Assembly (NCBI GenBank): GCA_018609755.1
Contig: JAHENZ010000225.1
Location: 1-41,606, forward strand
DNA: 41,606 nt
Origin: Salinivenus sp.
GTDB taxonomy: Bacteria; Bacteroidota; Rhodothermia; Rhodothermales; Salinibacteraceae
Direction: 5' to 3'
Of the stretch, positions 8,149 to 9,599 are shown one piece after another. The position numbers were made by a program, and so were the translations under genes. The notes beneath the pieces are model-generated. The model made no database searches and had not been told where the DNA came from. It saw nothing but the letters and a program-made list of their open reading frames with translations. Position 1 is the stretch's first letter. Every line of letters begins with the position of its first letter.

Positions 8149-8625
8149 ATGCGTTCTCGCTTCCTTCCTGTTTTCCTCCTCCTTCTCCTCCCGTTTGGCT
8201 GCACCTCCGAGGAGAGCGGATCGGAACCTGAAGAGATCTCGTTTCAAGAAGGCACCCTCGCGTTTGTCCAACCGAGCGGCGACACGCTCACGTCCATCGA
8301 CATCGCAATTGCCGACTCCGACCCTGAGCGAAAACGGGGGCTCATGCGGCAGCGCTCCCTCGGGTACGACCGCGGGATGCTCTTCATTTTCGACACCGTG
8401 GACGAGGGCGGAATGTGGATGCGAAACACGCCCCTTCCGCTCGACATCGTGTTCGTCGCCCCTGATTCGCAGGTCATCAACGTCGCCCGGGGCACGACGC
8501 CCTTCTCCGACGAAACGATCAAGCCGGAGGCCCCACGAAAATTCGTCGTGGAGGTGCGTGCCGGGTTTGCCGACCGCTTCGGCCTCACCGACAGCACGCG
8601 CATCCGCTGGACTCGTACGCAGTAA
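8149..8625 (+). CDS. DUF192-family lipoprotein (copy 1)
   Basis: 158 residues. A signal peptide ends in the lipobox LPFGC (Cys about residue 22), so the protein should be envelope-anchored. The mature part is a DUF192 domain: IDIAIADSDPERKRGLMRQRSL, then DRGMLFIFDTVDEGGMWMRNTPLPLDIVFV, VINVARGTTPF and the closing VEVRAGFADRFGL. These are the conserved blocks of this small beta fold, often found in halophiles and thermophiles. Its biochemical role is unknown. A second, diverged copy follows 82 bp downstream on the same strand. Confidence 0.88.
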   Translation: MRSRFLPVFLLLLLPFGCTSEESGSEPEEISFQEGTLAFVQPSGDTLTSIDIAIADSDPERKRGLMRQRSLGYDRGMLFIFDTVDEGGMWMRNTPLPLDIVFVAPDSQVINVARGTTPFSDETIKPEAPRKFVVEVRAGFADRFGLTDSTRIRWTRTQ

Positions 8626-8707
8626 TTCTCCCTGCCTTTGACCAAAAGGTCAGCCGTACATTCTCATAACTCAGGACTTGCCCGCACCTCATCCGTCGAC
8701 TCCGAGC

Positions 8708-9217
8708 ATGCCTGCCTCTAGACTCCTTCTCCCCAGTCTCCTCACGTTCCTGCTGATCTTGTTTCCGGCCTGCACCAGCGACAACGGCGACGCCCCATCG
8801 CCTGCTACCGCCGACACGACGACCATCCCGTTCGACAAGGAAGGAGAGCTCGCCTTCGTGCAGGACGGTGACACGCTCGTTATGCTCGACATCGAAATTG
8901 CCGAGTCCGATTCCGCCCGCAAACGCGGCATGATGCAGCGCACGGGCTTCCCGACCGAGACGAGTGGAATGCTCTTTCCGTTCGACGAGGAACAGGAGCG
9001 CAGCTTCTGGATGGCGAATACGCCCCTCTCCCTCGATCTCTTCTTCATCAACGCCGACTCGCAGATCGTGCGCGTCAAGAAGTACGCACAGCCGAACAGC
9101 GCCACCTCCATTCCCTCGCAGGCCCCGGCCCAATACGTGCTCGAAACCGAAGCGGGCTTCGCCGACAGCTACGGCATCGTGGAAGGCGACCGCGTGCAGT
9201 GGCGACGCACCAAGTGA
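8708..9217 (+). CDS. DUF192-family lipoprotein (copy 2)
   Basis: 169 residues from ATG 8708; an in-frame TTG at 8678 would add ten residues before the signal peptide and is less likely. The lipobox is LFPAC. The DUF192 blocks mirror copy 1: LDIEIAESDSARKRGMMQRTGF, GMLFPFDEEQERSFWMANTPL, IVRVKKYAQPNSATSIPSQA and VLETEAGFADSYGI. The two proteins are about half identical over the domain but differ in the linker after the lipid anchor, so this is an older tandem duplication. Function unknown. The gene is convergent with the tRNA-Leu gene. Confidence 0.88.
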   Translation: MPASRLLLPSLLTFLLILFPACTSDNGDAPSPATADTTTIPFDKEGELAFVQDGDTLVMLDIEIAESDSARKRGMMQRTGFPTETSGMLFPFDEEQERSFWMANTPLSLDLFFINADSQIVRVKKYAQPNSATSIPSQAPAQYVLETEAGFADSYGIVEGDRVQWRRTK

Positions 9218-9325: not shown

Positions 9326-9599
9326 TGCCCCAGGTGGGACTCGAACCCACACGGTGCGTGTGCACCAACGGATTTTCGTCTCACATTGGCTTTCGCCGTT
9401 TGTGAGCTGGACTTTCTCTTCACCCCGAATGCCATCGGGGCACTCCCCGTCAAGTCTCTGCACCTTCCCGTTCGGGCTTGGCTCAGGGTTGCCATTCTAC
9501 AGGGTCCCCTGAATTTGAGGAGCGTCATTCCAACCGTTGCCGATTGGACGCTCAAGTTGCACTCAAGTCCGTTGCGTCTACCAGTTCCGCCACCGGGGC
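9326..9599 (-). tRNA. tRNA-Leu(UAA) interrupted by a group I intron
   Basis: On the minus strand the 5' exon (9599-9565, 35 nt) starts GCCCCGG and ends in GGACTT. The 3' exon (9376-9326, 51 nt) starts AAAATCCGTTG and has the long variable arm GGTGC/GCACC, a T-arm GTGGG/CCCAC and the acceptor CTGGGGC with discriminator A. Joined, they give an 86-nt leucine tRNA with anticodon loop CTTAAAA, that is anticodon UAA, split after U34. This is the same site as in cyanobacterial and plastid trnL. CCA is not encoded. Leucine identity is supported by the class II variable arm and A73. The intron is listed separately. Confidence 0.93.
9377..9564 (-). ncRNA. group I (IC3-like) self-splicing intron in tRNA-Leu
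   Basis: A 188-nt intron. Its last base is G, as group I introns require, and the exon base before it is U, able to form the U-G pair with the guide GAG in the TTGAGC segment. Conserved core elements, very like the Anabaena tRNA-Leu intron, are CCTGAGCCAAGCC (9487-9475), GGTGCAGAGACT (9464-9453, 5' side of P7) and AAGAGAAAGTCC (9420-9409, 3' side of P7). P2 is a GAGCGTC/GACGCTC stem (9520-9526 with 9547-9553). No homing endonuclease is encoded. Self-splicing is inferred from the complete core. Confidence 0.92.

Follow-up and report, generated by a model that had tools for sequence, protein, structure and literature searches.

A group I intron, IC3-like and predicted to be self-splicing, was identified with high confidence in the only tRNA-Leu(UAA) gene detected in a Bacteroidota/Rhodothermia-like bacterium; it is a member of a large intron family that occupies exactly this site in many bacterial phyla and on phages and plasmids. 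What is said below of catalysis, homing and the route of transfer is inferred from sequence. The window, i.e. the whole stretch of DNA analysed, is 41,606 nt long and belongs to a MAG-like assembly of 5.0 Mb (96% complete, 4.96% contamination). RecG of this genome was closest to that of Bacteroidota among named phyla (45-49%), and its order was placed as sister to Bacteroidota on the RecG tree (97/97), in agreement with the Bacteroidota-like genome proposed in an earlier note on this DNA. The composition of its phylum would match class Rhodothermia within Bacteroidota as defined by GTDB.

Split tRNA-Leu(UAA) gene

The gene lies on the minus strand (9599-9326) in two pieces separated by 188 nt (9564-9377). 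The 5' piece reads GCCCCGGTGGCGGAACTGGTAGACGCAACGGACTT and the 3' piece AAAATCCGTTGG...TGGGGCA; the joined exons were identified as Leu(taa) by ARAGORN run on the spliced sequence. With its default setting (no introns), ARAGORN missed the split gene in the window. In intron mode it returned Ser(GGA) with splice sites displaced by 1-2 nt, a solution that was overruled by empty sites in congeners. The sequence AGACGCAACGGACTTAAAATCCGTTGG was present uninterrupted, exact and free of an intron in 6 of the 12 other genomes of the genus. The intron was present in 6 of all 13 (G000, G003, G004, G007, G009 and G010, the window's genome included), each of which lacked uninterrupted AGACGCAACGGACTTAAAATCCGTTGG, and neither form was seen in one genome that is 62% complete. 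The splice junctions are fixed to a single base because exact empty sites exist in six congeners. The split after U34 and its coordinates were thus established as the earlier note had given them, and the insertion site is that of the cyanobacterial and plastid trnL introns, by the empty sites and by the spliced product Leu(taa). Two adjacent DUF192 genes (window 8149-8625 and 8678-9217) lie beside the tRNA gene, and no phage genes were recognised next to it. Coordinates of all features are collected in Table 1.

Table 1. Exons, intron and intron helices of the tRNA-Leu(UAA) gene in the window.
Feature	Position	Strand	Remarks
5' exon, tRNA-Leu(UAA)	9565-9599	-	ends in U34 (GGACTT); junction sequence identical in uninterrupted congeners
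Group I intron	9377-9564	-	188 nt, no ORF, last base G (9377); RF00028, covariation, empty sites
3' exon, tRNA-Leu(UAA)	9326-9376	-	starts with A35; long variable arm and T arm
P1	9551-9567	-	exon CUU with guide GAG (9553-9551), GAGU/ACUU extension; U.G at 5' splice site
P2 stem, GCAA tetraloop	9530-9547	-	7 of 7 pairs changed on both sides
P3, 5' strand	9517-9523	-	partner 9442-9448; compensatory changes at all 6 pairs
P3, 3' strand	9442-9448	-	covariation alignment
P4 (9512-9507 with 9488-9483) around 2-bp P5, 8-nt loop	9483-9512	-	100% and 98.8% of cells paired
P6/P6a, GAAC loop	9463-9481	-	covariation alignment
P7, 5' strand, guanosine-site G (G109 of intron)	9453-9458	-	100% of cells paired
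P7, 3' strand (AGTCC)	9409-9413	-	covariation alignment
P8 hairpin	9423-9440	-	17 of 18 nt common to tRNA-Arg(UCU) intron of the same genome
P9 (5 bp) and P9a, GAAA tetraloop	9380-9406	-	96.7% and 98.4% of cells paired

Identity and fold of the intron

The covariance-model search that the earlier note had named as a check was run with cmscan against all of Rfam. It gave a group I match (RF00028) of 63.9 bits (E 4.4e-14; gathering cut-off 50 bits), the single RF00028 match in the whole 5.0-Mb genome. A structure was drawn from the window sequence and scored on an alignment of 43 Leu introns. Standard pairs filled 89.7% of cells, vs 27-48% when the partners were slid; the covariation score was 0.402, vs at most 0.108, and both sides had changed at 38 of 52 pairs. 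At the 5' splice site, P1 kept its C-G and U.G pairs in 43 of 43 sequences; the final G of the intron was likewise conserved, and C-G/U-A of P7 was replaced by G-C/C-G in six of the 43. P8 was paired in 56.9% of cells, an alignment problem; covariation therefore says little on this helix.

The features that define group I introns were found: the P3-P8 core, the guanosine site in P7, the U.G pair at the 5' splice site and the terminal G. IC3 introns are small tRNA introns that lack P5abc and carry GNRA loops on P2 and P9. The window intron is a small tRNA intron without P5abc, with GCAA in L2, GAAA in L9 and a P5 of 2 bp. The terminal G, the exon U with its guide GAG and the core segments quoted in the earlier note were all located in the sequence, and its description of a very compact ribozyme was borne out by the length of 188 nt and the lack of an ORF. 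The intron was the shortest among 110 compared, with phage introns of 191-196 nt nearly as short. A homing endonuclease, as expected of a mobile group I intron, is not encoded, because 188 nt leaves too little room.

The intron shares with its cyanobacterial and plastid trnL(UAA) counterparts the gene, the position after U34, the lack of an ORF and a core near the plant trnL primers g and h. This likeness, which the earlier note had put as core segments almost like those of the Anabaena IC3 intron, was measured on these published primers, which agree with the window at 15 of 17 and 17 of 22 positions (2 and 5 mismatches), similar to other family members. It differs from them in its Bacteroidota-like host, in being shorter and in its reduced P5 and P6. 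The bacterial IC3 introns of Azoarcus tRNA-Ile and Agrobacterium tRNA-Arg are likewise small, and GNRA loops cap their P2 and P9, but they occupy a different tRNA and a different position of the anticodon loop.

Distribution in bacteria, phages and plasmids

A pattern for the split tRNA-Leu(UAA) gene was applied to one genome per species, and at least 80 loci were read. At least 68 of these spliced to Leu(taa); several of the remainder were cut by contig ends. Among the matches listed, hosts of verified split genes belonged to Pseudomonadota (alpha, beta and gamma), Bacteroidota, Acidobacteriota, Bacillota, Bdellovibrionota and Thermodesulfobacteriota, and isolates included Bradyrhizobium lablabi, Lysobacter concretionis and Pseudomonas jinjuensis. 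Within the window's phylum at least 7 of 395 genomes matched, five of them of the window's genus, the pattern giving a lower bound. The first gammaproteobacterial tRNA-Leu intron was reportedly described by Vepritskiy in 2002.

According to a 2014 review, tRNA genes with group I introns occur in cyanobacteria, in plastids and in a few alpha- and betaproteobacteria, the tRNA-Leu(UAA) intron being ascribed to the first two (PMC4033280). Thiomargarita and Beggiatoa have tRNAs for Leu-TAA and Arg-TCT in which putative group I introns have been reported (PMC4853749); these hosts (Thiomargarita nelsonii and Beggiatoa) are Gammaproteobacteria, and the introns were neither folded nor classified. Since those cases are published, a split tRNA-Leu(UAA) outside cyanobacteria is not new in kind. 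The surprise that the earlier note had attached to such a location does not survive them, nor the 68 or more split genes in six named phyla and those on phages and plasmids.

Among phages, the split gene was found on genomes of 735 kb (LR756501/LR756503) and 595 kb (LR756511), on the isolate Agrobacterium phage Atu_ph07, and complete on 84 IMG/VR contigs identified by the pattern, some of which may be proviruses with host flanks. Introns of tRNA-Leu(UAA) in phages, those of 490-735 kb included, measured 191-1087 nt (L337, L505, L506 and the 84 IMG/VR loci among L382-L501). Phage introns known until 2014 sit in protein genes, according to a review of that year (PMC3984707). In Gammaproteobacteria, Bacilli and Bacteroidales, Leu introns about 690 nt long encode HNH proteins, as do those of phage contigs L244 and L262. 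Six viral contigs (L232, L235, L251, L265, L267 and L275) carry group I introns seemingly in tRNA genes other than Leu.

A conjugative Bradyrhizobium plasmid carries the split gene, and about 1,260 plasmids, mostly enterobacterial, resembled the query along 80% or more of its length. Two of these records were read (pCTX-M3 and an Acinetobacter plasmid); both hold a complete split gene near aac(3)-IId, unannotated as tRNA. The copy on pCTX-M3 (NC_004464.2, ~61.8-62.1 kb; L502 4001-4300) has an intron of 213 nt and may be a trace of the chromosome that supplied the module.

A second split gene, tRNA-Arg(UCU)

In the same genome tRNA-Arg(UCU) is split after U34, like the Leu gene, by a group I-like intron of 629 nt (contig C277; L016 577-1574, L516) that is missed by RF00028. 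The gene stands between tRNA-Pro and tRNA-Cys, an order that recurs in G014 and G309. Among the genes read, none was an intact tRNA-Arg(UCU). The intron encodes a PF11645 endonuclease of the PD-(D/E)XK fold, which we take to be of the type of I-Ssp6803I from the cyanobacterial tRNA-fMet intron. The likeness, PF11645 within a tRNA group I intron, belongs to this second intron and not to that of the window.

P8 of the Arg intron and P8 of the window intron agree at 17 of 18 bases. Among the other Leu introns compared, the best match to the Arg P8 was 15 (the sister of the window intron), the next 13, and none of 20,000 shuffles exceeded 15; in G014 and G309 the Arg intron carries a different P8 hairpin. 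This suggests that part of the sequence was exchanged between the Leu and Arg introns of the genome. Gene conversion or intron insertion would be plausible mechanisms because the two tRNAs have the exon sequence CGGACTT in common.

The sole result of a T-loop motif scan for further split tRNAs in the genome was a tRNA-Leu(CAG) gene that has its 3' half but no 5' half (contig C95, ~5.67 kb, minus strand; L521). This may be an attachment site; the genome yielded no intact tRNA-Leu(CAG). In other genomes of the order, group I introns were seen in tRNA-like genes for Arg(UCU), Ile(CAU), Met and Lys(UUU) (L032-L035, L041, L043-L046, L048-L050), and RF00028 matched in 23S rRNA-like genes of two (L042, L047).

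Origin of the intron

On the RecG tree the intron occurs in G000 and G009 and, apart from these, in G003, G004, G007 and G010; two changes are needed because intronless species separate both sets. G008, the nearest intronless species, has the same upstream neighbour at nearly equal distance. Intron trees were built on about 200 columns. The first divided the introns of the genus into two sets (one clade in 40-44% of bootstraps), and with the six longest-branched rows removed they formed one moderately supported clade (94/89). Either a single gain followed by losses or two gains with a common source is possible. In G306, from another family of the order, the nearest intron rows were alphaproteobacterial.

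The patchy distribution and the mobile carriers favour horizontal spread. We consider it probable that the intron came by way of a phage, a plasmid or neighbouring bacteria, was gained once in the ancestor of the genus (or on two separate occasions), and was replaced in some species by intronless alleles. Whole split genes on phages and conjugative plasmids, the patchiness within the genus with its two changes, the single clade obtained from the reduced tree and the alphaproteobacterial affinity of the G306 intron all support this, whereas a donor was not identified, grouping of G306 with the genus was not rejected (AU p 0.2), and the window gene has no recognised phage gene beside it. Vertical descent from a very old ancestor, common to this lineage and cyanobacteria, with many later losses would account for the exact site and the homologous core in many phyla. 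It appears improbable, however, given the few matching genomes of the phylum (most of them in one genus, by the lower-bound pattern), the intermingling of beta- and gammaproteobacterial introns and the nesting of phage introns among bacterial ones.

Direct transfer from a cyanobacterium or plastid was weighed on the identical insertion site and on the core variants CTGAGCCAA and GTGCAGAGACT of primers g and h, which occur in all six introns of the genus and in only 1 of 104 other Leu introns below 300 nt. The same variants are found in phage introns L244 and L262 and in many phage contigs, however, the primer mismatches (2/17 and 5/22) are no better than in the best Bacteroidota or phage introns, and the tree places the genus together with Bacteroidota, Gammaproteobacteria and phages in a starred set (99/91), so that such a donor is very unlikely. 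Two scans of viral contigs for introns of the cyanobacterial trnL type gave one false match and otherwise none. The earlier note had left the choice between transfer and very old ancestry: its first option is favoured by the patchy distribution and the mobile carriers, and nothing points to a cyanobacterial donor. More speculatively, and with less than even confidence, the textbook cyanobacterial and plastid trnL intron could itself be one branch of a tRNA-Leu(UAA) intron family that circulates on phages and plasmids in the form of whole tRNA genes and, within the cell, swaps parts with the intron of tRNA-Arg(UCU), in which the 5' exon of the anticodon arm is likewise CGGACUU.

Proposed splicing and its significance

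In the folded pre-tRNA, CUU of the anticodon loop would pair with the guide GAG. Free guanosine, held at a G-C pair of P7, would attack after U34; the freed exon end would then attack after the last G of the intron, and joining of the exons would yield the mature UUA-reading tRNA. The window intron, free of an endonuclease, would be passed on together with its gene, and the HNH-bearing members of the family presumably home into empty sites.

A second, intact tRNA-Leu(UAA), which the earlier note had said would speak against its reading, was searched for in the 96%-complete genome and not found; the other Leu tRNAs are GAG, UAG and CAA. A copy hidden in an assembly gap is unlikely at this completeness. 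With no intact tRNA-Leu(UAA) seen in the rest of the genome, translation of UUA codons probably depends on splicing; UUA makes up 4 of the 5,761 codons in the window's genes. That the split gene is a dead pseudogene, as its escape from the default gene finder might suggest, is hardly credible: neither exon and none of the core helices is damaged, five congeners conserve the arrangement, and no other Leu(UAA) gene was found in the genome.

With split tRNA-Leu(UAA) genes surveyed over several phyla, phages and plasmids, the question of where the plastid intron came from has to be tested in a different way. The survey also carries a warning that in such genomes the apparent sole UUA-reading tRNA is missed by gene finders.
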